Assembly: GCA_030544185.1 (NCBI GenBank)
Contig: JAUNRO010000023.1
Coordinates: forward strand, 1-15,949
DNA: 15,949 nt
Direction: 5' to 3'
Source of the DNA: Propionibacteriaceae bacterium
GTDB taxonomy: Bacteria; Actinomycetota; Actinomycetes; Propionibacteriales; Propionibacteriaceae
Shown here one piece after another: positions 1 to 15,908 of this stretch. Position 1 is the first letter of the stretch. Every line of letters starts with the position of its first letter. A program made the position numbers and the translations under genes. Below the pieces are notes generated by a model that was given only the letters and a program-made list of their open reading frames with translations, had not been told where the DNA came from and made no database searches.

Positions 1-2062
1 GAACAATCGGCCCACCGCCACGGTCTGACCGTCCTCAACCTCACCGCCGAAGAGGCCACGAACTATCCATTGGCGCTGAGCGCTTACAGCGGAGACGAGG
101 TCCGGCTGCTGCTCGGTTATGAGCCGGACCTGTTCGACCAGGACACCGCCGACCGACTGCTGCGCGACCTCAGCGGCACCCTCGCCGGCCTGGTCGGTGA
201 TCCGGAGCGTCCGCTCGCCGCGGTGCGGGCAGCGGACACCTCGGCGACCGACGCGTTCGTCGATGGCGGGCCGCTGGCGGTGCCGGAGCAGACCGTGCAC
301 GATCTCTTCGCGGCGCAGGTGGCGCAGCGACCCGACGCCACCGCCCTGACCACCGACGACCAACACTGGACCTACACCCAACTCGACGAATGTGCCCAGC
401 GGATCGCCAAGCAGCTGCGCGGGATGGGCGTCACCCACGAATCGCGCGTCTTCCTCGCGATGCCCCGTTCTGCGGGCCTGGTCGCGGCCATGCTGGGCGT
501 ACTCATGGCGGGTGCGACTTATGTCCCGCTGCACGACTCCGTGCCCCCCGAACGCGTCGCTGCGCTGGCACGCGATCATGGGGTGGCGTACCTCGTCGCG
601 GACCCCGGGAGCCGGGACCGACTCGCGGCTGTGTCCGCGCTGGCTGTCCTGATCTGCGGGCCGGATGGGCGGGTCCTGCCCTCCGATCCGGGACGTGCAC
701 CTGCTGCTGCGGGGCGGTCGACCAAAGCCGCGCCGGCGTCGGCGGCGTACATCATGTTCACCTCAGGCTCGACCGGCACACCGAAGGGCGTGGTGGTCAC
801 CCACCGCAACATTGTGGCGCTCACCCGGGACGAACGGTGGGCGGACTCCCACGACCGGGTGCTGTTCCACTCGCCCCATGCGTTCGACGCGGCTACCTAT
901 GAGATCTGGACACCGCTGCTCAACGGCGGGACGGTCGTGGTGGCGTCGGCGCAGGGCATCACGCCGGCCACCCTGCGCCGGAGCGTCGACAGCGGCGGTG
1001 TCACGGCGGTCTTCCTGACCACCGCCCTGTTCAATCTGCTGGCCCAGGAGGATCCCGCGTGCTTCGCCGGGCTGCGCCAGGTCTGGACCGGCGGCGAGGC
1101 AGCTGATCCGGAGTCGTTCGTGCGGGTCCACCTGCCCGGTCACGACGCTCGTCCATGTCTACGGACCCACCGAGGTCACGACGTTCGCGACCTGCACCCC
1201 GATCGCCGAGGCCGACGCCCGCGCCGGAGTCTGCCCCATCGGCCGACCGATGAACGGCACCGGAACACACATTCTCGACCGAGCCCTCCGGCCGGTGCCC
1301 ACCGGTGCCGTCGGTGAGCTTTATCTCGCGGGTGACGGAGCAGCCCGCGGCTACGACGGCCGGGCCGGGCTGACGGCAGAACGCTTTGTCGCGAACCCGT
1401 TCGGCGATGGCGACCGGCTCTATCGCACGGGCGACCTGGTGCGCTGGCGGCCCGATGGGCTGATCCAGTTCGTCGGACGCGCCGACGGACAGGTCAAGAT
1501 CCGTGGCTTCCGGATCGAACCGGGCGAGATCGAGGCAGCCCTGGCCGCGTGCCCGGGCGTCGCCCAGGCCGCCGTCGCCGTGCTGGAAACCCCCTCCGGC
1601 TCGCGCGTGCTGGCGGGCTATCTGACCGAATCGGCTTCGGGGTCGGTAAGCCTCCCGAGCGTCGCGGAGGGCCTACGGGACACGCTGCCCGCCTACATGG
1701 TGCCGTCCTCGCTCCAGGTGCTGGACGCCCTTCCTCTCAACGACAACGGGAAGGTGGATCGGCGCAGGCTGCCGCAGCCCGACTGGGAGGCGATCCTGGC
1801 CGACCACTATCGGGCGCCAGAGACGCCGACCGAGGAACTCGTCGCCGAGATCTGGTCCCGGGTCCTCAACCTGCCGAGGGTCGGCCGCGACGACAACTTC
1901 TTCGAAGTCGGCGGTGACTCGGTCAAGAGCGTCCAGATCGTCGGCGAGGTGCGCGAGGCCCTCGACCTGAGCGTGCCGACCAGGGCCTTGTTCGACAACC
2001 AGACCCTGCACGCGTACGCCAGGGCGATCGAGGACGAGCTCCTGGAGCAAGCCCTGAGCTGA
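1..2062 (+). CDS. NRPS, 5'-truncated (end of C, then A-T), with an internal frameshift
   Basis: This is the 3' part of a peptide synthetase; it is open in frame 1 from base 1. Bases 1 to about 255 encode the C-terminal part of a condensation domain ([14 protein letters not shown]). An adenylation domain follows, with the ATP-binding motif [11 protein letters not shown] at 757-789, the pocket segment FDAATYE near 883-903, YGPTE, YRTGD and NGKVD (catalytic Lys codon 1751-1753). The carrier domain has VGGDS with the phosphopantetheine Ser at 1919-1921. The reading frame changes from 1 to 2 near 1130, inside the A domain. Aligned by eye to GrsA, the ten-residue specificity code reads D-A-Y-L-W-G-V-T-F-K, which suggests an aliphatic substrate such as valine (weak). 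There is no thioesterase after the T domain. The next synthetase starts 55 bases later with an LCL-like C domain, so this module probably passes its chain forward. Family assignment is secure; whether the intact protein is made is not. Confidence 0.9.
1129..1140 (+). other. Frameshift site within the first NRPS A domain
   Basis: Upstream of here the A domain reads correctly in frame 1 through [17 protein letters not shown]. Downstream, the expected [14 protein letters not shown] reads only in frame 2. The frame-1 reading runs on as non-homologous, Arg/His-rich sequence to a TGA at 1315-1317. By comparison with A domains that have an alanine-cysteine-proline step here, loss of two bases just after 1131 is the simplest explanation; gain of one base is the alternative. 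No further disruption follows to the stop at 2062, which fits a sequencing error or a very recent mutation. Confidence 0.85.
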
Positions 2063-2117: not shown

Positions 2118-5100
2118 ATGAGCACCACCGACGTTCAGACAACCGACCGGGCGAGCGTCCGCGATGAGATCCTGCGCCGAATGCGCAACCGCGACCGGCG
2201 ACTTGGCGACGTGCCCATCGTGGACCGTCACGAGCCGTTGCCGCTGTCGTTCGCGCAGCAGCGCCTCTGGGTCCTGGACCGGATCGATCCGGGGCGCACC
2301 GACTATCACTCCGCCTTTGCCCTCGACCTGACCGGCGATCTCGATGTGGACGCCCTCCGCCGCGCCTGGTGCGCACTGGTGCACCGCCATGAATCCTTGC
2401 GGACCCGGTTCGCCGAGGTCGACGGGGAGGGTCGCCAGCTCATCGATCCGCCCTCGGGACCCGAGATCACGATCATCGAGACCGACGTCGATCGGGTATC
2501 CGAGCTCGCCGACCACTACTTCGCCCTCCCGTTCGACCTGACGAGCGGGCCCCTGCTGCGCGTCCGGCTGTTCCGCGTCGGCCCACGACGCCACATCCTC
2601 GTGGCCGTCCTGCACCACATCATCACCGATGGCTGGTCGATGGGGGTCCTGCAGAAGGAACTCGACAGCCTGTACGCCAGGGCGGGGGAGGCGCCGCAAC
2701 TCGACGGCCAGGCTCTCGCCGCCACGCTGGACCCGCTTCCGTTCCAGTACGCCGACTATGCGCAGTGGCAGCGCGGGCGCCTGACCGGCGAGCGCTACCA
2801 GGCCTCGCTCGCGCACTGGAAGCGGCGGCTGGACGGCGCGCAGCCGCTGGAGTTCCCCACCGATCGGCCACGGCCGCAGGCACGGACAACTCGGGGCGAC
2901 GGGTTCTCGTTCGACGTCCCGGCCGCCGTCGCCGAGCGACTCGCCCAAGTGGGCCGCGACCACAACGCCAACCTCTATCAGGTCCTCATGACCGCCGCCC
3001 GGATCGCCCTGGCGCGGTGGACCCGCCACGACGACGTCGTCGTGGGCACGGTGACGGCCGGGCGGGAGGACGCCCGTTTCCATGCGATCACCGGGTTCTT
3101 CGTCAACACGCTCGCCCTGCGCGGAACCGTCGACGAAACACTGTCCTTCGCCCAGAACCTCGCGATCACGCGGGCGGACGTGCTCACCGACTTCGACCAC
3201 GCGGACGTGCCGTTCGATGCGGTCGTCGACGCCGTGTTGAGCGATCGCGACCCGGCGGTCCCGCCGGTGGTCCAGGCCGCGCTGATCCTGCAGAACGCGG
3301 CATCGGCGACCGGGAACCTCGGTGACCTGACGGCGACGCCGTTCGCGATCCATCGCGACCAGTCGGTCTTCGATCTCACACTCGAGTTCCAGGAGCGGGC
3401 CGACGGTCTGGCCGGACACGTCGAGTTCAGCTCGGACATCTTCGACCGGGAGACGATCGATTTGTTCGTCACCGGCCTGATCGAGGTGCTGGCGCATGCG
3501 GACGACCCCCGGCCGCTCCGCGCGCTGACACTTGCTGGCCCCGATGCAGCGGTCCTGAGCGGCCCGCCGGGTCCCCGTCCGCGATCGGTGCTCGATCTGC
3601 TGACCGATCAGGTGCTGACGCGACCGGATGAGCCCGCCGTGGTCGGTGCCGGCGAATCGGTGACGTTCGCCGAGATGGACCAGCGCGCCGCCGCCATTGC
3701 TGGCCAGCTTGCGGAGCAGGGCGTACGCCGCGGGGACCGGGTTGGCGTGTGCGTCGGTCGGGGCCCGGAACTGGCGGAATTGCTGCTCGGGGTGGTGTAC
3801 GCCGGGGCAGTCTACGTGCCGCTCGATCCGGATTACCCGGTGGAGCGCCTGGCGTACATGGTCGAGGACGCGGCCATGATCGGTGTCCTGGTCGCTCCCG
3901 AGTTCCGGACGCGGATGCCGGCCGGGGTGCGCACCCTGTCCGTCGACCGCGGCGCCCGGAGCACGCCGCTGCGTGCGGACCTGACCGTTGCCGGCGGCTG
4001 CTACATGATCTACACCTCGGGCTCCACGGGGCGACCCAAGGGCGTCCTCGTGCCGCACCGGGGGCTCGCCGCGATGACGCAATCCCTGGGCGAGGCGATC
4101 GGCATCGCCCCGGGGTCGAGGTTCCTCCAGTTCGCGTCGCCGAGTTTCGATGTGTCCATCGCGGAGATGATGGTCGCGTGGCTGAACGGCGCCGCCTGTG
4201 TGATGGTGCCGCGGGCCGAGGCGACGGCGGACGCGCTCGAAGCCACGCTGCGGAATCACTCGGTCACCCACGTCATCATGCCGCCGGCGCTGCTGCAGGC
4301 GCTCGATCCCGCACAGCTCGGACCGGTCGAGCACCTGCTCCTGGCCGGCGAGGCGTGGTCTGGTGCCCTGGCCGAGCGCTTCGGCGCCGATCGCTGCGTG
4401 CACAACGGATACGGCCCCACCGAGACCACCGCCTGCGCCACCGCCAGCCCGGCGCTGACGGACCCGGGCACGCCCCCGCTCGGTCCGCCGCTGGCCGGCA
4501 CCCGCCTCCACGTGCTCGATCGCTGGCTCCGTCCCGTGCGCGAGGGGGTTCCCGGTGAGCTCTACATCAGCGGTGACGGGGTGACCGACGGCTACTGGGC
4601 CCAGCCCGGGTTGACCGCCGCTCGGTTCGTCGCCGACCCGTCCGGTCCGGTCGGCCGCCGGATGTATCGCTCGGGCGATGTCGTGCGGCGTCGGCCCGAC
4701 GGGCAGTTGGAGTTCCTCGGCCGCGCCGACGAACAGGTGAAGATCCGGGGCCACCGCATCGAGCTCGGTGAGGTCGAGGCGGTCATCTCTGATCTGCCCG
4801 GAATCGACCAGGCTGTCCTGAGTGTCGACCGGACCGGCGCTGAGCGCCGGCTGGTCGCCTACGTCGTTCCCGCGCCCAACCACCCCCAGGCGCCGGCGAG
4901 CCTCGCCGGTGCAGCGGCCGAGGTGCTTCCGGCCTATATGGTTCCGGCCGCCTTCGTGACGGTCGACGGGATCCCCTTGACCGTCAACGGCAAGACCGAC
5001 CGCCGAGCCCTGCCCAGGGTCGATTGGGCCGGTCAATCGGGAACAGAACACGTGGCGCCCGAGTCCGCCACCGAGCTCGCGCTGGCGGAGGTCTGGCGGG

Positions 5101-8100
5101 AGCTGCTCAAGCTCGATCGGGTCGGGAAACACGACAACTTCTTCCGCGTCGGTGGTGACTCGGTGAGTGCGGTCCGGCTGGTGGCGCGCGCGGCCCAGAC
5201 CTTCGGGGTCAGGCTGGCGGTGCGGGCCGTCTTCGACCACCCGACCGTGGCGGGGTTGGCGCAACTCCTCGACGCCGGCGCCGCCGAGGTCGGCGTTGAT
5301 CCCGGCCCGGTCCCGGTGCCCCGCGACCAGGACCTGCCGCTGTCGGCCGGTCAGCGGCGGCTGTGGTTTCTTGATCGCTACGAGCCTGGCAGCGCGGAAT
5401 ACAACTCGGGCGGCGCCCTGCGGATCGCGGGCCTGGACGTGGCGGTCCTCTCGGTTGCACTCGCTGCGCTCGTCCACCGGCACGAGGCACTGCGCACCAC
5501 GTTCACCGAGGTCGACGGCCGTCCGGTGCAGGTCATCGGTGACCCCGCGCAGGCGCCGACCGTCGAGCTGACCGATCTGTCCGATGTCCCGGGCGCCCAG
5601 CGCGAGGCGTTCGTCGACGATGTCCTGAGCGACTTCATCCACCGGCCGTTCGATCTGTCGAGCGGGCCCCTGTTCCGGGCACTCGTGATCAAGACCGGAC
5701 CCCGGGACCACGTCCTCGCGCTCGGCATCCACCACATCGTGGTCGATGCCTGGTCGCTGTCCATCCTGACCCGGGAGCTGGGTGCGCTCTACGACGCGGC
5801 ACGGACCTCGCCCGCCGATGCCCGGGATCCCCGCACCCTGGCGCAACTGGCTGGTCTGCCGGATTCCCGACTGCAGTACGCCGACTTCGCAGCCTGGCAG
5901 GACGGATACCTCGAGTCCGACGCGTTCGACGAAGGCCTTGACTACTGGCGGACGCTGCTGGCGGATGCGGAGCCGCTGGATCTGCCGACGGATCACCCGC
6001 GACCGCCGGTGCGTCGAGGGCAGGGCACGACGCGCTTCTTCGACGTTCCCCGACCCACGGCCGCAGCCGTCCGCGCCTTCCAGCACTCCAGCGGCGTCAC
6101 CTTGTTCATGGTGTTGGCTGCCGCCGTCCGGGTCGTGCTGGCTCGCTGGGCCGGACAGCGCGACCTTGTGCTCGGCACCGTGATCTCCGGCCGGGATCGA
6201 GCTCAGCTCGACGATGTCGTCGGCTTCTTCGTCAACACCCTGGCGTTGCGGATGACGGTTGACGAGGCCCGCAGCGGCCGTGATCTCCTCGCGGCGACCC
6301 GGGAAGCGGTGCTCAGCGCGTTCCAGCACGGCGAAGTCCCCTTCGACACCGTGGTGGATGCGGTTGCGCCCCGGCGGGACCCGTCCCGGCCGACGCTGGT
6401 GCAGGCAGTGGTCGCCCTGCAGAACGCTCCGAGCGAAAGCTGGCAGATCGACGGCTTGACGGTGCAGGAGCAGGCGCTGACCCGCCGGGGCTCGCTGTTC
6501 GATCTCAGCGTCGACTTCTACGAGGACGACGACCGACTGTGGGCGAGCATCGAATACGACACCGACCTCTTCGAGCCCGCCACCATCGACCGGTTGTGGA
6601 GCCACCTGTGTGTCTTCCTGGACGCACTGGTGAGGTTCCCCGACCGTCCCATCAACCAGATCGACCACCTCACCAGCGGTGATCGGGACGAGCTCCTGGC
6701 CAGCAGTCGAACCACCCTGCACCGCTCAGTCTCAGCCGGGTCCGGCGAGGGCAGGTCGGGGGTGGCTGAGGGGCTGACGAGGCTGGCGCGCACCCATCCG
6801 GACGCTCCCGCCCTGACCGGTTCGGACCGAAGCCTGACCTTCGCCGAGCTGGAGGCCCGGGTCAACCGCGTGGCCCGGCATCTCGCCGGGCTCGGGATCG
6901 GGCCGGGCGATCGGGTCGTCACCATGGTGCCGCGCAGCGCCGACGCTGTGGTCGCTCTGTTCGGCGTCCTGCGGTCCGGCGCCGCATACATCCCGATCGA
7001 TCCCGCAGCCCCCGCCGATCGAGCTCGAACGATCGCCGCCGGTGCCGGCGCCGTCCGGGTCCTCGCCACCGGCGAGACGGTCGACGCCGCGCGGAGCCTG
7101 CTGGGGGAGACCCTGCCGGTCACCGAGGTCGCCGAAGCTGCGCAGCGATCGAGCGCGGCCTTCACCGCTGCCGAGCGGGTCCGTCCGCTGCGCGGCGCCG
7201 ACGAGGCGTACATCATGTTCACCTCGGGATCGACCGGTGCGCCGAAGGGGGTGGTCGTCACCCACGACAACCTCGAGGCGATGGTCGCGGCCTATCGGGA
7301 GGCAGTCCCGGAGGGCCCCGAGACCCGAGACCGCCGGATGAACGCGGCGCACCTTGCTGCCTGGACCTTCGACGCCTCCTGGGACCCGCTGGTGTGGCTG
7401 CTCAGCGGTCACCACCTGCACGTCGTCGATGAGTTCACCCGGACCGACGCAGAAGCGCTGTGCGGCTATGTCGCCGAGCACCGCATCGACTACCTCGACA
7501 CCACGCCGTCCTATCTCAATCAGCTCGTCGCGGCCGGACTCCTCGACGAGGGCCGACGCCCGCTCACGGTGCTCACCGTGGGGGCGGAGGCACTGGACGA
7601 TGGCTTGGCCGAACGGCTTGCCGCCGCGGGGCTCGAGGCGGTGTACAACTTCTACGGTCCGACGGAGAACACCGTCAACAGCACTGTCTGGCGCGTGCAG
7701 CCCGGGTGCCGGCCGCTGATCGGCCGACCAGTGCCGGGCACCCGGGTCTTGGTCCTGGACGAATGGCTCCGCCCGGTCCCGGTCGGGGTGCGTGGTGAGC
7801 TCTACCTCGCAGGTCAGGCGGTCGCGCGAGGCTATGAGGGATCCGCGGTGCTGACAGCCGAACGCTTCGTCGCGGATCCGGCGGGTTCCGGCGAGCGCCT
7901 CTATCGGACCGGGGACGTCGTGCGCTGGACCGCCGATCACGAGCTGGAGTTCCTCGGCCGCAACGATGGTCAGGTGAAGATCCGCGGCTACCGGATCGAG
8001 CTCGGTGAAGTGGAGGCCGTCATCGCGAGCCTGCCGAGGGTCGTCTCCGCAGCCGTCGTGGCGCGGGAGGACAGGCCCGGGATCAAACGGCTCGTGGCGT

Positions 8101-9899
8101 ACGCCGCCGTCAAGGACGGCGACCTCGCCCCCGATGGAGCAGCCATCCGCGCCGCTGCTGCCCGGCGGCTGCCCGACTACATGGTCCCGACCGCCGTCGT
8201 AGTCCTCGCCGAGCTGCCGCTCAACGCAAACGGGAAGACCGATCGCAAGGCGCTGCCTGCGCCGACCGAGGACGCCCTGCTCACCGCCGGTTTTGTCGCG
8301 CCTACCGGCGCCGCCGAGGTTTTCCTCGCTGCGCTCTGGCGCGACCTGTTGGGCGTGCCGCGGGTCGGCGCCGAGGACAACTTCTTCGACCTCGGTGGTG
8401 ACTCGATCCTCAGTATTCAGCTGGTCTCCAGGGTTCGGGCAGCCGGTCTGGAGCTGACCTCGAAGGACGTGTTCGTGCATCAGACGCTCGCTGCAATGGC
8501 GGCTGTCATGGACGCCCGGGAGCAGGTCGCGCCGGCCAGCGATGCCGATCGCGGCACACCGCTCACCGGCGACGTCGTGCTGACTCCCGTCCAGCACTGG
8601 TTTTTCGAGACCCATCCGCATCACCCCGAGCACTTCGACATGTCGCTGCTGGTCGAGATCGATCCGACGGTGGACCCGGGCCTGCTGGCGCAAGCAGTGA
8701 GGGCGGTCATCGACCAGCACGATCTGCTCCGGCTCCGGGCCGAACGCACGCCGGCCGGCGGGTGGCGCCAGCATCTGGACGAGGCGCTGGACAGCCACGC
8801 GGTCCGCGTGGTCGACGGCGCCGGGCTGAGTGAGGAGGTGTTCGAGGCGCTGGTCGCGACCGAGGCTGCCAGAGCGCGGCCGGCCCGCCGCCTCGCCGAC
8901 GGTCCGTTGTTCGAAGCCGTGATCTTCGACGGTGCCGGGGCCCGACCTCACCAGTTGCTGTTGTCAGCCCACCACCTGGTCGTCGATGCGGTTTCGTGGC
9001 GGGTCATCACCGAGGATCTCGAGACCGCCTATCAGTGCGTCTGCGCAGATCGGTCGGTCGAGCTCGGTCGCCGCACCACGTCCTTCCAGGACTGGGCCGC
9101 GAAGCTCCAGAGCTTCGCCCGCACGGGCGGTTTCGATGATGACCTTGCGTTCTGGTCCGACACCGCATCAGCCGCCGGGCAGCTGACGGTGCCCTGCGAC
9201 CTGGCCACCGGTCCCAACGACGTCGCGTCCGAGGACCGGGTCACCGCGACCCTGTCCGAAGAAGTCACCACGGCCCTGCTCACGGCGGCCCCCGCTGCCT
9301 TCCGGTGCCGCATCGACGATGTCCTGCTGGCGGGAGTCGGACGGACGGTGGCCGACTGGGCGGGCTCCGCGGCGGTCGGTATCGAGAAAGAGGGCCATGG
9401 TCGCGAGGACATTCTCGACGGCGTCGAGGTGTCCCGGACGGTCGGCTGGTTCACCACGATCTATCCCATGCTCCTGGAGCTGCCTGAGGGCCGCGATTGG
9501 GCGGAGACGGTTGCGGCGATCAAGCGGCAGACCCGCCGGACGCCCCGCGGCATCGGCTTCGGTGCGCTGCGCTATCTGGTTGACCGACCGGGCACCGACG
9601 CCCTGCGGAGCCTGCAGCTGCCGATCGCGTTCAACTACCTCGGCCGCTTCGCCGACAGCGCCGGGGACGGCCTGGTCCGGCGTTTCCTGCCGACCCCATG
9701 GGTCGACCACTCGCCGGCCGAGGAACGGACCAACCTGCTCGACATCACCGGCGCCGTCACCGACGGCCGGATGACGTTCACCTGGACCTACTCGACGAAC
9801 CGGCATCACCGCACGACGGTGGCCGGGCTCGCCCGAGCCCTCACCGATGGCCTCACCGAGATCTCCCGAGCGTCGTCGCAGCGGCGCCGGGGCCGGTGA
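2118..9899 (+). CDS. Non-ribosomal peptide synthetase, two modules, C-A-T-C-A-T-E
   Basis: This 2593-residue cytosolic synthetase adds two amino acids and epimerises the second. By residue: C about 30-470 (HHIITDG, His166-Gly172), A about 490-960 (YTSGSTG from 632, Lys959), T (Ser1015), C about 1070-1500 (HHIVVDA, 1205-1211), A about 1540-2040 (FTSGSTG from 1701, Lys2040), T (Ser2096), E about 2150-2585 ([10 protein letters not shown] from 2285, then EGHGRE and FNYLGRF). Both C domains begin with LCL-like LPLS..Q.RLW segments. Specificity codes read by eye are D-V-A-I-L-A-G-A-C-K and D-A-D-D-L-V-F-V-N-K. I recognise no exact match for either; the two acidic pocket residues in the second hint at a basic side chain (inference). 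No release domain follows E, so a partner must continue or release the chain. The ATG at 2118 has GGAG five bases upstream. An mbtH gene follows 63 bases downstream. Confidence 0.97.
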
Positions 9900-10203: not shown

Positions 10204-10439
10204 CTGTTCTCGACAGTGCGGCATCGACGTCCGTGGAACCAGTGTCTGAATGTCAGTGCAATCTGACCCGGTGTGGTTGGAGGCCGAATAGTCCGCCCGG
10301 TTCGCAGTGATCGGGCGCATCCCCCCACATGTCGCTGAGGCGGCGCGCTCCGCGTTGCCGAGGCCACGATTCGGTCGAGTCTGCGCAGCTGGATATCGGC
10401 CCACGGACCGACGTTGCCAATCGAAAGAAGGTCAAGACA
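10204..10439 (+). other. Intergenic gap, likely leader/promoter region of the tailoring genes
   Basis: I find no gene here; the short reading frames that cross it have no ribosome-binding site and no recognisable product. It is the longest non-coding stretch in the window and is a little less GC-biased around 10240-10300. A small nested inverted pattern, CTGA (10246-10249), TCAG (10253-10256), CTGA (10263-10266), could be an operator but is short enough to be chance. I see no convincing -35/-10 pair. Its place ahead of seven closely packed genes makes a promoter likely, but this is inference. Confidence 0.4.
10426..10431 (+). promoter_or_regulatory. Ribosome-binding site that sets the ligase start
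   Basis: AGAAGG ends eight bases before the ATG at 10440. This favours that start over the in-frame ATG at 10329, which would add 37 Arg-rich residues unlike the family and has no clear ribosome-binding site. Confidence 0.75.
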
Positions 10440-11828
10440 ATGTTGCCGCTTTGGAACCCCGAGATCGCCCTGGACGCCGCACGGTTCTGTGAGGACCAGC
10501 GCCGCCAGTGGTCGAATGAGATGACGACAGAGGAACTGGGCGCCTGGCAGGAGCGCGGCGTTGCTGCCACCTTCGATCACTGCCGGGCCGGGTCCGAGTT
10601 CTATCGGGAGCACCTGCGGGGGCTGGAGACCCCGTCCTCGCTGGCGGACCTGCAGCAGATTCCCTTCACGACGAAGGACGACCTGCGAGCCCACCTGGAC
10701 GCTGTGGCGTCCCTGCCGCTCGGACAGGCGTGGGTCTATTACGAGACGACCGGCACGACCGGCGTCGCGACCCCATGCCCGCGGACGACAGGGGATTCGA
10801 TCCGCACCGGAGCCGCATTGGTGAACGGCTACCGACAGCTCCTGGAGCCTTACGGGGAGAACCTGGTGTTCGCCGTCATGGGCCCCACCGAGCTCCATTC
10901 CACCGGGGACACGTTCGGTGATGTGCTCCGCAGCCTGGGGCACGCGACCGTGAAGATGTGGCCCCACTCCCCGCTCGTGGGATTCGAGCGCGCCTGCAAT
11001 CTGATCAAGCGGCTGGGGGTCAATGCCCTCATCTGCACCCCCGGGATGACCATCCTGCTCGCGCGGGAGATGCTGAATCGGGGTATCCGGCCGGAGAGCC
11101 TGGGGATCAAGGTCATCCTCACCGTCGGTGAACTGGCGTCGGAAGGGCTGCTGACCGCGATCGGACACACGTGGGGCGCCGATGTCCACAGCTGCATGTA
11201 CGCCTCGCAGGAGGCGTCGATCCTCGCCGTGTGCCAGGCCAACGGCGTACTGCGCAGCACTCCGCTGAACTACTTCTATGAGCTGATCGATCCACAGTCC
11301 GGCGAGGTGCTCGACTCGGGCGCCGACGCCAGGCAGGGCGAGCTCGTGGTCACGCATCTGTATCAGGGCGCGAAGCCCCTGCTGCGTTATCGCACCGGGG
11401 ATCTGGTGCGCATCGATGGGCATGGTCAGGATTTCGAGCTGACCCCGATCGGTCGCGTCCGCGATATCGTCCGCGTCCGGGACCGCAACTACTTCGCGCT
11501 GGATTTCGAGCGTCAACTGCTCCAGTTCGCCCCCCGCTTCCTGGACTATCAGGTGAGCATCGCGCGGGACGAGTTCGGTGACGATCGCCTCGATGTGGTC
11601 TTCGAGCCCGGGCCCTTTGCGAGCGAATCGCTCGTGTCCTATGCGTCCTATGCGACCCAGGCCTTCGATGTGCCGGTCACGGCGACCTGGGGTCCCACTG
11701 ATGCCCGCACCGCGACGGGCGCCATGGTCAGCTGGAAGGCTGCCCGGATTCGCGATGACAGGAACGATGGGTTCGAGGAGCGGTCGTCCATCCGCCTCGC
11801 GGTCGCGCGCGCCGGGAGCAGCAGATGA
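10440..11828 (+). CDS. PaaK-like adenylate-forming ligase (phenylacetate-CoA ligase family)
   Basis: The 462-residue protein looks like a member of the PaaK branch of adenylate-forming enzymes, which activate a carboxylic acid as its AMP ester and usually transfer it to CoA. Visible features are the PaaK-type IPFTTKDDLR (75-84), the phosphate-binding loop ETTGTTG (102-108), YASQEAS (254-260) where the family has its acid-binding aromatic/Glu motif, YRTGD (317-321), and a C-terminal SWKAARI whose Lys433 matches the expected catalytic lysine. The length is close to the usual 430-440 residues. The acid substrate is not readable from sequence. Candidates are an aryl or alicyclic acid made by the neighbouring genes or an acyl starter for the NRPS (inference). 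Its TGA overlaps the next gene's ATG (ATGA), so the two are probably translationally coupled. No free-standing carrier protein gene is present as an obvious acceptor. Confidence 0.88.
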   Translation: MLPLWNPEIALDAARFCEDQRRQWSNEMTTEELGAWQERGVAATFDHCRAGSEFYREHLRGLETPSSLADLQQIPFTTKDDLRAHLDAVASLPLGQAWVYYETTGTTGVATPCPRTTGDSIRTGAALVNGYRQLLEPYGENLVFAVMGPTELHSTGDTFGDVLRSLGHATVKMWPHSPLVGFERACNLIKRLGVNALICTPGMTILLAREMLNRGIRPESLGIKVILTVGELASEGLLTAIGHTWGADVHSCMYASQEASILAVCQANGVLRSTPLNYFYELIDPQSGEVLDSGADARQGELVVTHLYQGAKPLLRYRTGDLVRIDGHGQDFELTPIGRVRDIVRVRDRNYFALDFERQLLQFAPRFLDYQVSIARDEFGDDRLDVVFEPGPFASESLVSYASYATQAFDVPVTATWGPTDARTATGAMVSWKAARIRDDRNDGFEERSSIRLAVARAGSSR

Positions 11829-12712
11829 ACCGGTTGGCCTTCGTGGATGGGGACTGGATTCCCGAGGCCACCGGTCTGCTTCCGGTGGGGACGCAGGGGC
11901 TGCATTACGGCACCGCGGCGTTCGAGGGCATCCGGACCTATCCCACCGAGACCGGTCGGGCGACGATTCTCTTCCTGTACGCCCATCTGGAGCGGCTGCT
12001 CAGGTCCTGTTCCTACCTGCAGATTGAGCTGGGGTATTCGGTCGACGAACTCGCCCGCATCGCCCATGAGCTCGTCGATCGCAACGACGGGCACACCGCT
12101 GCGGGCTACATCCGACCGGTCGTGTTCAAGACGCGGCTGCTGCCCGGCACTGCGTTCGGGGTCAGGCTCACCGGGGTTGGCCACGCCGTGGCGATGACGT
12201 GGACGCCCATGCCCCGCCGGAACGGGGCAGAGTCGTCGCTGTGGCAGGCGAGCGCCTGCGTCATCCCCACGCAATCCATCAGCGCTGAGGCCAAGCTCTC
12301 CGGCAAATACATCGTCAATGCCCTGGCGGTGGACGAGGCGGTCCGCAACGGCCATTCGGACGGCTTGCTGTGCAATCGGGACGGGCACGTGGTCGAGGCG
12401 TCGACCAGCAACGTGTTCATCGTGTCGGACGGCGTGCTGGTCACGCCGCCGCTCAGCGACGGCCCGCTTCCCGGGGTCACTCGGGCGGCGGTCCTGACCA
12501 TTGCTGCCGAGCGTGGAATACCTGTCGTGGAGCGTTCGATGACGGTCGACGACGTGTGTGCCGCCCAGGAGGTCTTCCTGTGCGGAACGGGTGTGGAGAT
12601 ATCGCCGGTGCTTCGAGCCTGCGGTCAACAAATCGGTACCGGTCAAGTGGGTCAGACAACAAAGGAGATTATCGATGCATACGAAGACCTCATCGCATGC
12701 GGCGCCGGCTGA
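11825..12712 (+). CDS. Class IV (branched-chain-type) PLP aminotransferase
   Basis: The 295-residue protein has the fold-type IV PLP signature of branched-chain aminotransferases: HYGTAAFEGIRTY (27-39), YIRP (95-98), AKLSGKY with the PLP-binding lysine at 157, VVEASTSNVF with Glu191 facing the pyridine nitrogen, and PLPGVTR (214-220). The EGIR and YIRP motifs favour an IlvE-like L-amino-acid enzyme over D-amino-acid transaminase or aminodeoxychorismate lyase. Enzymes of this kind move an amino group, usually from glutamate, onto a 2-keto acid. In this cluster the likely acceptor is the prephenate-derived keto acid from the next gene, whereas bacilysin uses a class I enzyme (BacF) for that step. 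Supplying an aliphatic amino acid to the first synthetase is the alternative. The start overlaps the ligase stop, and the end overlaps the next gene by 38 bases. Confidence 0.93.
   Translation: MNRLAFVDGDWIPEATGLLPVGTQGLHYGTAAFEGIRTYPTETGRATILFLYAHLERLLRSCSYLQIELGYSVDELARIAHELVDRNDGHTAAGYIRPVVFKTRLLPGTAFGVRLTGVGHAVAMTWTPMPRRNGAESSLWQASACVIPTQSISAEAKLSGKYIVNALAVDEAVRNGHSDGLLCNRDGHVVEASTSNVFIVSDGVLVTPPLSDGPLPGVTRAAVLTIAAERGIPVVERSMTVDDVCAAQEVFLCGTGVEISPVLRACGQQIGTGQVGQTTKEIIDAYEDLIACGAG
12661..12667 (+). promoter_or_regulatory. Ribosome-binding site inside the aminotransferase gene that sets the BacA-like start
   Basis: AAAGGAG ends seven bases before the ATG at 12675. It is the strongest Shine-Dalgarno match in the window and lies inside the coding sequence of the upstream aminotransferase. 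It rules out the longer in-frame start at 12558. Confidence 0.85.
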
Positions 12713-13373
12713 CTGGGACACGCGCCAGCAGCACTTCCTGGTGAGCCCGCAGAACCTGGATGCCAAGGTGGTCGCGACGCTCGGACCCAAGGGAACCAGC
12801 AGCGAGCAGGCAGCGTGGCGCTTTCTGGCGCTGAACGACGCCCTGTCCGGCGAGATCCGGCTCAACAGCACCTATCCCGATGCCGCGGAGATGGTGCGCG
12901 ATGGTGCTGCCGACGTGCTCGTGGTGGCCAACGCATTCCACGGAGTCAATGAGTTCTATATGGACCCGCGGCTCCAGGTGCACTGTGTGTTCCGGATGCT
13001 GACGCCCCTCTACGGCCTCGCCTGCCGGGGCACCAACCCGCCCGAGGGGGAATACACCATCTATTCGCACCCTGCCCCGGTCCCGTTGATCGAAGAACTG
13101 CTGCCCGAGGGACATCAGTATTCGGAGGTGGTCCTGTCGAGCTCCACGGCCGAAGCGGCTGCCCAGGCGCGCGTGGCTCCGGCCAGCGTGGCCCTGACGA
13201 CCACGCTGGCCGCCAAGCGCAACGGCTTGCACATCTTCTCCCGCCAGCGCTGCATCGAGATGGTCTGGACCGTGTTCGCGGCCAGCCAGCCGGCCACGGC
13301 GCCTCCGGCAGGGACCATCCCCACTCCTGAACACCAAGCCATCAGACCGGGCGAACTCGTCGTGATTGGCTGA
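12675..13373 (+). CDS. BacA-like prephenate decarboxylase
   Basis: The 232-residue protein resembles BacA of bacilysin biosynthesis, as I recall its sequence, along its length: TLGPKGTSSE (35-44), an NAF-HG-x3-FYMDP stretch (86-98), TPLYGLACR (110-118), SHPAPVPLI (131-139), SSTAEAA (156-162), and an IEMVW-x2-F ending (194-201). BacA and relatives such as AerD and SalX decarboxylate prephenate without aromatising it, giving a dihydro-4-hydroxyphenylpyruvate that leads to alicyclic amino acids. Prephenate dehydratases share the TLGP start but carry a TRF catalytic motif and usually a C-terminal ACT domain. Neither is visible here, so phenylpyruvate synthesis is unlikely. The gene overlaps the aminotransferase by 38 bases and lies 81 bases before the DUF2000 gene. 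About 30 N-terminal residues precede the conserved core. The family call is strong; the exact product isomer is not readable. Confidence 0.9.
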   Translation: MHTKTSSHAAPADWDTRQQHFLVSPQNLDAKVVATLGPKGTSSEQAAWRFLALNDALSGEIRLNSTYPDAAEMVRDGAADVLVVANAFHGVNEFYMDPRLQVHCVFRMLTPLYGLACRGTNPPEGEYTIYSHPAPVPLIEELLPEGHQYSEVVLSSSTAEAAAQARVAPASVALTTTLAAKRNGLHIFSRQRCIEMVWTVFAASQPATAPPAGTIPTPEHQAIRPGELVVIG

Positions 13374-14191: not shown

Positions 14192-15168
14192 GGACCTTCG
14201 ATGCTGAGGAGGTGGCTGCGCTGCTGAGTCCGGAGATCGCCTACGAGGTGATGCACAGCACCCTCCGGCAGTTCGGCACGGCCGCGATCATGCAGCCGCT
14301 GCGCACCATTCTCCGCCCGGACTCCAGCGATTCCCTGATGGGCGTGATGCCGGCCCATCTGGCCGGCGACGACACGGGATTCGGGGTGAAGATCGCCCTT
14401 CTCGTGCCGGACAGCGGCAGTCAGGGACACGCGCGCCATGTCGGAATGGTGATGGTGTTCGACCCGGCGACCGGCGAACCGACGGCGGCGGTCGAGGCGG
14501 GCGCGGTCACGGCGCTGCGCACGGCCGCAGTCAGCGCCGTGGCCACCGATTGTCTGGCGAGGGACGACGCCGACACCCTGGCGATCCTGGGATCCGGGGT
14601 CCAGGCCCGCAGCCACCTCCGGGCCCTGGCCGGTCGTCGGAGCTATCGCAGGGTGGTGGTCTGGAGCCCGACGGAGAGCCGGGCTAGGGCGATGGCCGCC
14701 TGGGGCGAGTCCCTCCTCGGTCAACCCGTGCTCGTCGCCCCGACACCCGGGCAAGCGGTCGCCGGCGCGGCGGTGGTCGTCACCGCAACCGCGTCGAAGC
14801 AGCCGCTGCTGGAACACGCCGACATCGCGCCGGGCACGCATATCAACGCGGTGGGGGCCTCCTTCCGCGACTATCGGGAGCTCTCCTCGGAGCTGGTGGC
14901 GGCTGCGCGATTCGTCGTGGACAGTCGGGTCTCGGCGCTGGCGGAGTCCGGGGACCTGCTGGAGCCGATCCGCGAGGGCCTGTGCACCGCGGACGACATT
15001 CGGGGCGAGCTGGGGGAGATCCTGCGCGGCGAAGCCGTCGGCCGGGAAACCCCGGACGACGTGACGGTCTTCAAGTCGCTGGGCCTTGCGGTCGAGGATG
15101 TCGCCGCTGCGTTCGCTGTGGTGCGGATGAGCCAGGCCGACGCAGCGGCCGACCTCGCTCGGGCATGA
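14188..15168 (+). CDS. Ornithine cyclodeaminase/mu-crystallin family NAD(P)-dependent reductase
   Basis: The 326-residue protein belongs to the ornithine cyclodeaminase/mu-crystallin family: FGVKIALLVPDS with Lys68, VTALRTAAVSA (108-118), a Rossmann motif ILGSGVQARSH (133-143), INAVGASFRDYREL (219-232), SGDLLEP (254-260) and TVFKSLGLAVED (293-304). Several blocks read closer to mu-crystallin, a ketimine reductase, than to bacterial ornithine cyclodeaminase. The catalytic Asp228 of Pseudomonas putida ornithine cyclodeaminase (GGDCPGKTE context) aligns with Ser225 here, which argues against that activity. Reduction of a cyclic or open imine, or an amino-acid dehydrogenase role, fits better (inference). 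A SbnB/VioK-type role in diaminopropionate synthesis is less likely, as no cysteine-synthase-like partner is seen in this window. The ATG overlaps the Dabb stop; its own TGA overlaps the next ATG. Confidence 0.88.
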   Translation: MRTFDAEEVAALLSPEIAYEVMHSTLRQFGTAAIMQPLRTILRPDSSDSLMGVMPAHLAGDDTGFGVKIALLVPDSGSQGHARHVGMVMVFDPATGEPTAAVEAGAVTALRTAAVSAVATDCLARDDADTLAILGSGVQARSHLRALAGRRSYRRVVVWSPTESRARAMAAWGESLLGQPVLVAPTPGQAVAGAAVVVTATASKQPLLEHADIAPGTHINAVGASFRDYRELSSELVAAARFVVDSRVSALAESGDLLEPIREGLCTADDIRGELGEILRGEAVGRETPDDVTVFKSLGLAVEDVAAAFAVVRMSQADAAADLARA

Positions 15169-15908
15169 TTTCGAGGATGGCCCGCGCGCCGCAGGGAACG
15201 GTCCTGAGCAGCATCCTGCCCGCGCAGGTGGTCTGTGCCGAGGAATTCTCCGCGGGTCCGAGCGATTCGGCGGAGGCCGTCGTGCTGTCCGGCCTGTTTG
15301 ATGGCGAACGCTCAGCGATAGCGGGCGCGGTGCCCAGGCGCCAGGCACAGTTCGCGGCGGGCCGACGGTGCGCTCGGGCGGCGCTGGGTGAACTCGGGCG
15401 TGAGCCTTCGGCGATCCTCCCGGGGGCACGGCGCGAACCCGTGTGGCCCGACGGTGTCGTCGGCAGCATCACCCACTGCGCGGGCTATTGCGCCGCGGCG
15501 GTGGCATCGCAGCGCACCGTGTGGAGCCTCGGAATCGACGCCGAGGCCCATGAACCGCTCCCGGAGGGGGTGCTGGAGGTCGTGAGCGATCGCGACGAGC
15601 GCGCGCTGCTGCGGCAGTTGGCGCGCACCCATCCCGCGGTGCACTGGTGTCGGGTCCTATTCAGCGCCAAGGAATCGATCTATAAGGCCGTGTTCCCGAT
15701 CACGCGTCGCTGGCTCGGCTTCGACGACGCAACCCTGACCTGGGACATCTTCGGTGGTTCGTTCCGGGCCCGGCTGAACCCCGACGCCGCCCACGGCTTG
15801 GCCCCCGGGTCGGCAGGCCCGCCGGTCGTCACCGGTCGATTCGCTGTGCACGGTGAGCTGATCATGACCGCCGTCGTGCTGGCGCCCCCCGGGCGACCGA
15901 CGGGCTAA
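15165..15908 (+). CDS. Sfp/EntD-type 4'-phosphopantetheinyl transferase
   Basis: This 247-residue enzyme transfers the phosphopantetheine arm of CoA to the serine of NRPS carrier domains, turning them to the holo form. EntD-like features are a QFAAGRRCARAAL block in the N-terminal half, GSITHC (Ser101-Cys105 region), the magnesium motif GIDAE with Asp125 and Glu127, and FSAKES with Lys169 and Glu170 followed by IYKAVFP. The ATG at 15165 overlaps the reductase TGA in an ATGA, which supports it over the in-frame ATG at 15177. As the last gene of the run, it would make the cluster self-sufficient for carrier priming; the three T-domain serines in this window are natural targets. The TAA is at 15906-15908, and the 41 bases that follow hold nothing I recognise. 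Confidence 0.95.
   Translation: MISRMARAPQGTVLSSILPAQVVCAEEFSAGPSDSAEAVVLSGLFDGERSAIAGAVPRRQAQFAAGRRCARAALGELGREPSAILPGARREPVWPDGVVGSITHCAGYCAAAVASQRTVWSLGIDAEAHEPLPEGVLEVVSDRDERALLRQLARTHPAVHWCRVLFSAKESIYKAVFPITRRWLGFDDATLTWDIFGGSFRARLNPDAAHGLAPGSAGPPVVTGRFAVHGELIMTAVVLAPPGRPTG

Follow-up and report, generated by a model that had tools for sequence, protein, structure and literature searches.

Gene content of the window

The stretch of Propionibacteriaceae DNA analysed here (the window, 15,949 nucleotides) carries the features listed in Table 1, and its ends cut the gene cluster on both sides. The upstream part is occupied by nonribosomal peptide synthetase (NRPS) genes. In the first of these the A domain is split across two frames (1-1317 and 1250-2062), a break that may reflect a sequencing error or a damaged gene alike. 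The last condensation-like domain of the second NRPS is, judging from a motif of ten residues, probably an epimerisation domain. A run of smaller genes follows, centred on one encoding a BacA-like protein.

Table 1. Features of the window with their coordinates, strand and the basis of each assignment
Feature	Coordinates	Strand	Basis or remark
Upstream NRPS end (A and T domain)	1..2062	+	Reading frame broken at about 1120-1250
NRPS, 2593 aa, C-A-T-C-A-T plus last condensation-like domain	2118..9899	+	Three Condensation, two AMP-binding and two PP-binding stretches; motif positions
PaaK-like AMP-forming ligase	10440..11828	+	ATG at 10440 taken as start (hand count); frame opens at 10329
Class IV (branched-chain-like) aminotransferase	11825..12712	+	Domain scans
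BacA/SalX-like prephenate decarboxylase (predicted), 232 aa	12675..13373	+	Pfam, motifs, tree, Shine-Dalgarno sequence
DUF2000 protein, 135 aa	13455..13862	+	Pfam PF09391, 113.9 bits
Dabb (A/B barrel) protein, 104 aa	13877..14191	+	GTG start; Pfam PF07876, 64.2 bits
OCD/mu-crystallin family reductase, 326 aa	14188..15168	+	Domain scans
PptT/Npt-type 4'-phosphopantetheinyl transferase (PPTase)	15165..15908	+	Domain scans; alternative start at 15177

The ligase and aminotransferase genes overlap by 4 nt, and the latter overlaps the BacA-like gene by 38 nt. Gaps of 81 nt and 14 nt lie between the BacA-like and DUF2000 genes and between the DUF2000 and Dabb genes, respectively, and the Dabb and OCD genes again overlap by 4 nt. 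This spacing suggests that the run from the ligase to OCD forms one operon. A PPTase start at the ATG at 15165 would overlap the OCD stop. The first-pass annotation of this DNA had named an aminotransferase and an NRPS as neighbours of the BacA-like gene, and both are confirmed; it had missed that, judged from the sequence, the DUF2000, Dabb, PaaK-like ligase and OCD genes belong to one unit with the BacA-like gene and the aminotransferase. In the ligase family, YETTGTTG and AMVSWKAAR are kept in at least 95% of 22 chosen alignment rows. The best solved relatives of the OCD protein are a pyrroline-2-carboxylate reductase and a thiomorpholine-carboxylate (ketimine) dehydrogenase; sequence searches returned only weak PDB relatives for Dabb and, at 0.001, none for DUF2000.

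The BacA-like protein and its relatives

Salinosporamide (a proteasome inhibitor), bacilysin and an antibiotic of Photorhabdus all contain non-aromatic amino acids that arise through prephenate decarboxylase pathways. The BacA-like gene of the window starts with ATG behind a good ribosome-binding site (AAGGAG), and the only Pfam match of its product is to the prephenate dehydratase domain (PDT; 40.1 bits, residues 33-190), above the cut-off. The NCBIfam prephenate dehydratase model gives 36.6 bits, far below its cut-off of 219. The first-pass annotation had described BacA-type motifs and the lack of TRF and ACT, and our inspection agrees: TLGPxGTSSE, HPAP and RxIxMxW[ST]xF are present in the protein, and neither the TRF motif nor, by Pfam scan, an ACT domain was found in it.

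Seven PheA proteins served as a control. Each came from a different genome that also carries a BacA-like gene, a separate PheA being present in all seven genomes of relatives searched. These controls score 145-223 bits against PDT and all carry TRF; six of the seven contain an ACT domain (E 0.01), the exception (L081) combining chorismate mutase and PDT. Near the C-terminus, MxW[ST]xF occurs in 67 of the 70 BacA-like rows of our tree and in none of the seven PheA. The string TRF is present somewhere in four of the 70 BacA-like rows (L016, L028, L101, L105) and HP[AS]P is missing from nine, so these marks are typical and not universal.

A first protein search with the window protein gave 69 rows, namely the query and 68 relatives, whose source names are mostly prephenate dehydratase (domain) protein, bacilysin protein BacA and hypothetical protein. 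When one genome per species was scanned, 127 relatives came up, and the best 80 of them entered the analysis as loci; 160 genomes of one genus were searched to find SalX. Among those best 80 of 127, the window protein shares 34-37% identity with the Bacillus loci and 54% with Kocuria, the former range marking it as BacA-like and not as a close copy of BacA. The tree comprised 77 rows (70 BacA-like and seven PheA), including SalX (L095), Photorhabdus and Bacillus proteins but not AerD; left out of it were 15 near-copies (8 Photorhabdus, 7 Bacillus), seven of ten Micromonospora-group rows, and L088-L094, which duplicate genes from other loci.

In this tree the seven PheA stand apart from the BacA-like rows with support of 100/99. 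The seven bacilysin-type rows form one clade (100/99), SalX falls inside a ten-row clade (100/97) and the window protein pairs with Kocuria (100/96). These four groups are the trustworthy part of the topology, the deep decarboxylase forks lacking resolution and several long branches coming together. The phylogeny that the first-pass annotation had proposed as a check on its BacA assignment is thus in line with it, as the window protein lies with Bacillus BacA, SalX and the Photorhabdus enzyme, outside the seven PheA, in a tree drawn without AerD. A profile built from 25 BacA-like proteins gave 210-274 bits for the cassette relatives L088-L091 and L093-L095 and 185 bits for Bacillus BacA (L092), scores biased in favour of the cassette relatives because the profile contains their close kin; five PheA reached 22-34 bits over their best stretch, and two were missed. 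As to identity alone, the window gene very probably encodes a prephenate decarboxylase.

The first-pass annotation had expected automated annotation to name such a gene prephenate dehydratase. Among the six annotated plasmid records described below this is borne out by one, H1 ("prephenate dehydratase domain-containing protein"), but not by H4 and H5 ("hypothetical protein") or by H7, H11 and H12 ("bacilysin biosynthesis protein BacA"). A distant BacA-like clade (L096-L105) shows 26-30% identity to the Photorhabdus protein, and the three of its rows kept for the tree have neither MxW[ST]xF nor HP[AS]P. By eye, the BacA-like gene of L105 directly follows a PaaK-like ligase and precedes an amidohydrolase-like frame.

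A shared gene set and three partner variants

The locus comparison covered 82 loci, that is, the best 80 of the 127 relatives plus the salX locus (L106) and the window, and all counts below refer to this set; the 15 near-copies absent from the tree were retained in it. Three rounds of profile search, covering flanks of up to 10 kb on either strand, were used to find partner genes. The complete set of PaaK-like ligase, class IV aminotransferase, OCD and Dabb genes flanks the BacA-like gene in 54 of the 82 loci, from Actinomycetota and Pseudomonadota. Thirty-seven of these full-core loci also carry DUF2000, 15 carry DUF1330 and two carry neither; one further DUF1330 locus lacks one of the four core partners.

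Small partner genes divide the set (best 80 of 127 plus two) into a DUF2000 variant with 42 loci including the window, a DUF1330 variant with 16 and a BacB cupin variant with 14. In the window, neither DUF1330 nor a PhzF-like gene nor a BacB-type cupin was found, and it is of the DUF2000 variant. After dropping three short contigs without any partner (L022, L040, L076) and keeping the other short ones, 79 loci remained, in which no two of the three partners coincide, against 8.5, 7.4 and 2.8 loci expected by independence for the three pairings; the loci are related, and the three-state variant label can be mapped onto the tree with only 4 changes, so these counts are not independent and overstate the evidence. 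DUF2000 loci (9) and DUF1330 loci (6) that share one core are nevertheless found together within one 17-row part of the tree (90/85, not starred). The PhzF-like gene is found in 15 of the 16 DUF1330 loci (the exception being L046), in two loci of neither type, in none of the 42 DUF2000 loci and in none of the 14 BacB loci; in the salX locus it was found across L106 and L107.

None of the four core partners was detected at the 13 Bacillota BacB loci of the 82, and the Streptomyces BacB locus L070 has Dabb. Outside Bacillota, bacilysin-type genes including the cupin also occur in two Streptomyces loci, L070 and L114, where a Dabb gene lies about 5 kb off. In five of the 82 loci (L005, L052, L057, L064, L068) DUF2000 stands beside the decarboxylase with none of the four core partners. 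According to names assigned by eye, a formylglycine-enzyme-like protein follows the DUF2000/BacA-like pair in the Bacillota among them (L057, L064 and L068, the contig of L064 being cut short), molybdopterin-oxidoreductase-like and permease-like proteins are found as well in L057 and L068, and an EamA-like transporter follows in L005 and L052.

Ten of the 82 loci have no small partner, three of them being the short contigs named above. Of the seven with full flanks, five lack OCD (L012, L016, L045, L049 and L062, which carry the ligase, aminotransferase and Dabb) and two (L048, L063) have all four core partners together with a PhzF-like gene. L049 adjoins a flavin-monooxygenase-like gene and L012 one for an FAD-NAD(P)-binding protein. 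A CMD-like gene occurs in 18 of the 82 loci (best 80 of 127 plus two), all from Pseudomonadota; it was not found in any actinobacterial locus of the set or in the window, which is cut at both ends.

A relative was found on 19 plasmid records, eight of which were examined. H1 and H4 carry DUF1330 and PhzF, H7 and H11 carry DUF2000 and CMD, and H12 is of the bacilysin type with cupin; H5 has only Dabb, aminotransferase and EamA transporter genes, and H3 and H19 are unannotated. The exclusion between variants also holds in the four cassette-bearing records among these eight. A LysE-type transporter gene closes the plasmid sets of Pantoea and Pseudomonas (H7, H11), consistent with a secreted free amino acid; in the window an NRPS and a PPTase take its place.

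Three known systems and the closest relative put the window in context. Photorhabdus is known for dihydrophenylalanine, according to a review. In Photorhabdus luminescens (L021) the gene order is Dabb, DUF2000, ligase, aminotransferase, decarboxylase, CMD-like and OCD, and this gene content suggests that L021 is the dihydrophenylalanine locus. Like the window, it unites Dabb, DUF2000, PaaK-like, class IV aminotransferase, BacA-like and OCD genes; it differs in gene order, in the CMD-like gene between the BacA-like and OCD genes and in having no NRPS in its flanks, whereas the window has an NRPS and PPTase and no CMD-like gene. A 2011 study by Crawford and colleagues is said to have found three genes, plu3042-3044, required for 2,5-dihydrophenylalanine, with a transaminase yielding 2,5-dihydrotyrosine; Actinobacteria reportedly also make dihydrophenylalanine. 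By gene order the CMD-like gene of L021 is probably plu3044.

The Salinispora genome G158 has the order Dabb, ligase, aminotransferase, SalX, OCD, DUF1330 and PhzF-like. A SAM-chlorinase family gene (PF01887) lies at 1,163,096, 16 kb from SalX at 1,179,759, and because of this gene and a phosphorylase we regard the locus as that of salinosporamide. Disruption of salX inactivates the supply of cyclohexenylalanine (PMC2866466), and PMC8609351 reports a cyclohexenylalanine block in the sal cluster of Salinispora fenicalii, the species of L028. The salX block shares Dabb, PaaK-like, aminotransferase, SalX/BacA-like and OCD genes with the window but has DUF1330 and a PhzF-like gene where the window has DUF2000. 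The bac operon of bacilysin shares the decarboxylase family; all seven rows of the bacilysin clade carry the BacB cupin, and none of the 14 bacilysin loci (best 80 of 127 plus two) has a PaaK-like ligase, class IV aminotransferase, OCD or DUF2000. Kocuria salsicia (L001), the nearest decarboxylase among the best 80 of 127, has the same DUF2000-type cassette; its gene order differs, its OCD scores lower and no NRPS was found within 13.4 kb.

Proposed route and rival readings

From what is established here, namely the protein families, the gene run, the conserved set and the variant type, we think it probable that the prephenate decarboxylase opens an operon-encoded route to a 2,5-dihydrophenylalanine-like residue for an NRPS peptide. 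The BacA-like enzyme would remove CO2 from prephenate to give endocyclic dihydro-4-hydroxyphenylpyruvate with a non-aromatic ring, and the class IV aminotransferase would convert this to 2,5-dihydrotyrosine before isomerisation can occur, both steps being modelled on what is reported for the Photorhabdus enzymes. The ligase, Dabb, DUF2000 and OCD proteins would then jointly strip the ring hydroxyl, leaving 2,5-dihydrophenylalanine or close kin. In this putative reductive deoxygenation OCD would most likely be the hydride donor (SN2'-like), since no other core protein is of the reductase type and imine reductases are the best solved relatives of OCD; the ligase could form a leaving group or a carrier-bound form. 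Finally, the neighbouring NRPS, activated by the PPTase, may build the residue into its peptide, a step in which we have less confidence than in the route as a whole. In the DUF1330 variant the PhzF-like protein would shift a double bond and so allow a second reduction, which fits cyclohexenylalanine as against dihydrophenylalanine. As the window is of the DUF2000 variant, common to Photorhabdus, dihydrophenylalanine is the better guess for it. Counting against the route is the lack in the window of the CMD-like gene, probably plu3044, one of the three genes reportedly required in Photorhabdus; further points against it are the relatedness of the loci behind the exclusion counts, the seven full-flank loci with no small partner, the A-domain codes given below and the truncation of the cluster at both ends.

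A more specific proposal, offered tentatively and with some doubt, is that the core ligase, Dabb and OCD proteins carry out an undescribed reductive deoxygenation of dihydrotyrosine, while the exclusive partners (DUF2000; DUF1330 with the PhzF-like isomerase; BacB) would set the final state of the ring. DUF2000 would then be a new enzyme or chaperone that fixes the dihydro stage, and the dihydrophenylalanine of the window would enter a nonribosomal peptide. To our knowledge, how the hydroxyl group leaves the ring in the biosynthesis of dihydrophenylalanine and cyclohexenylalanine has so far gone unexplained. The five-gene core and the three partner variants of the 82-locus comparison (best 80 of 127 plus two) supply candidates for ring deoxygenation that can be tested by deletion, and the neighbouring genes let genome miners guess the ring type in place of a misleading prephenate dehydratase name. 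Our literature search, outside which most subscription papers lay, found no article with the word DUF2000 and none in which dihydrophenylalanine, nonribosomal and gene cluster occur together, so that novelty is not proven.

Four other readings were weighed. The cassette could make 2,5-dihydrotyrosine or another ring-hydroxylated residue, with the remaining genes serving attachment or self-protection: on paper the decarboxylase and aminotransferase are enough, and the window lacks the CMD-like gene seen in the Photorhabdus set. We consider this unlikely, as the ligase, Dabb and OCD genes stay with that pair in 54 of the 82 loci (best 80 of 127 plus two), including the Photorhabdus and salinosporamide loci, whose reported products are without the hydroxyl. 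Cyclohexenylalanine, as in salinosporamide, would be suggested by a five-gene core shared with the Salinispora locus, yet it is improbable for a window without DUF1330 and PhzF-like genes, given that the latter accompanies 15 of 16 DUF1330 loci and none of 42 DUF2000 loci in the same set.

A bacilysin/anticapsin or aeruginosin (Choi) type pathway, the latter marked by an AerD clade with AerE/AerF, can be set aside as very improbable. It would share the family of the first enzyme (by our tree and PMC10157211), but a BacB-type cupin, present in seven of seven bacilysin-clade rows, is missing from the window, and no short-chain dehydrogenase was found among its scanned genes; AerD lay outside the comparison. 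There is equally little chance that the gene at 12675-13373 is an ordinary prephenate dehydratase, a reading for which the Pfam PDT match above its cut-off would speak: TRF and ACT are absent, the protein lies outside the PheA clade and each of the seven genomes searched has its own PheA. We reject identity with an ordinary PheA. The first-pass annotation is thus supported in part: its sequence points to a decarboxylase that does not aromatise the ring, and not to a dehydratase, within a cluster that has an NRPS and an aminotransferase. Its list of products was too wide: dihydrotyrosine and cyclohexenylalanine are less likely, and Choi and anticapsin are disfavoured by the partner genes of the window.

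Returning to the favoured dihydrophenylalanine-like residue, we compared A-domain codes in 24 domain pieces with the aim of naming the module that would take it up. The A2 code of the window is DVAILAGAC and the A1 pieces read DAYFWG and VTF; A3 is uncertain, reading by eye and alignment being in disagreement. By the usual code positions and specificity rules, A2 would presumably accept a hydrophobic, roomy residue and the A1 pieces appear branched-chain-like. Among the 24 pieces, no window code equals DLLSVGGVF, seen at two Salinispora loci, or DA[VI]VLGGTL, seen at five DUF2000 cassettes. The latter is the common code of A domains near the DUF2000 cassettes of Frankia and Streptomyces (L002, L010, L011, L018, L036), and is a candidate code for dihydrophenylalanine-type specificity.
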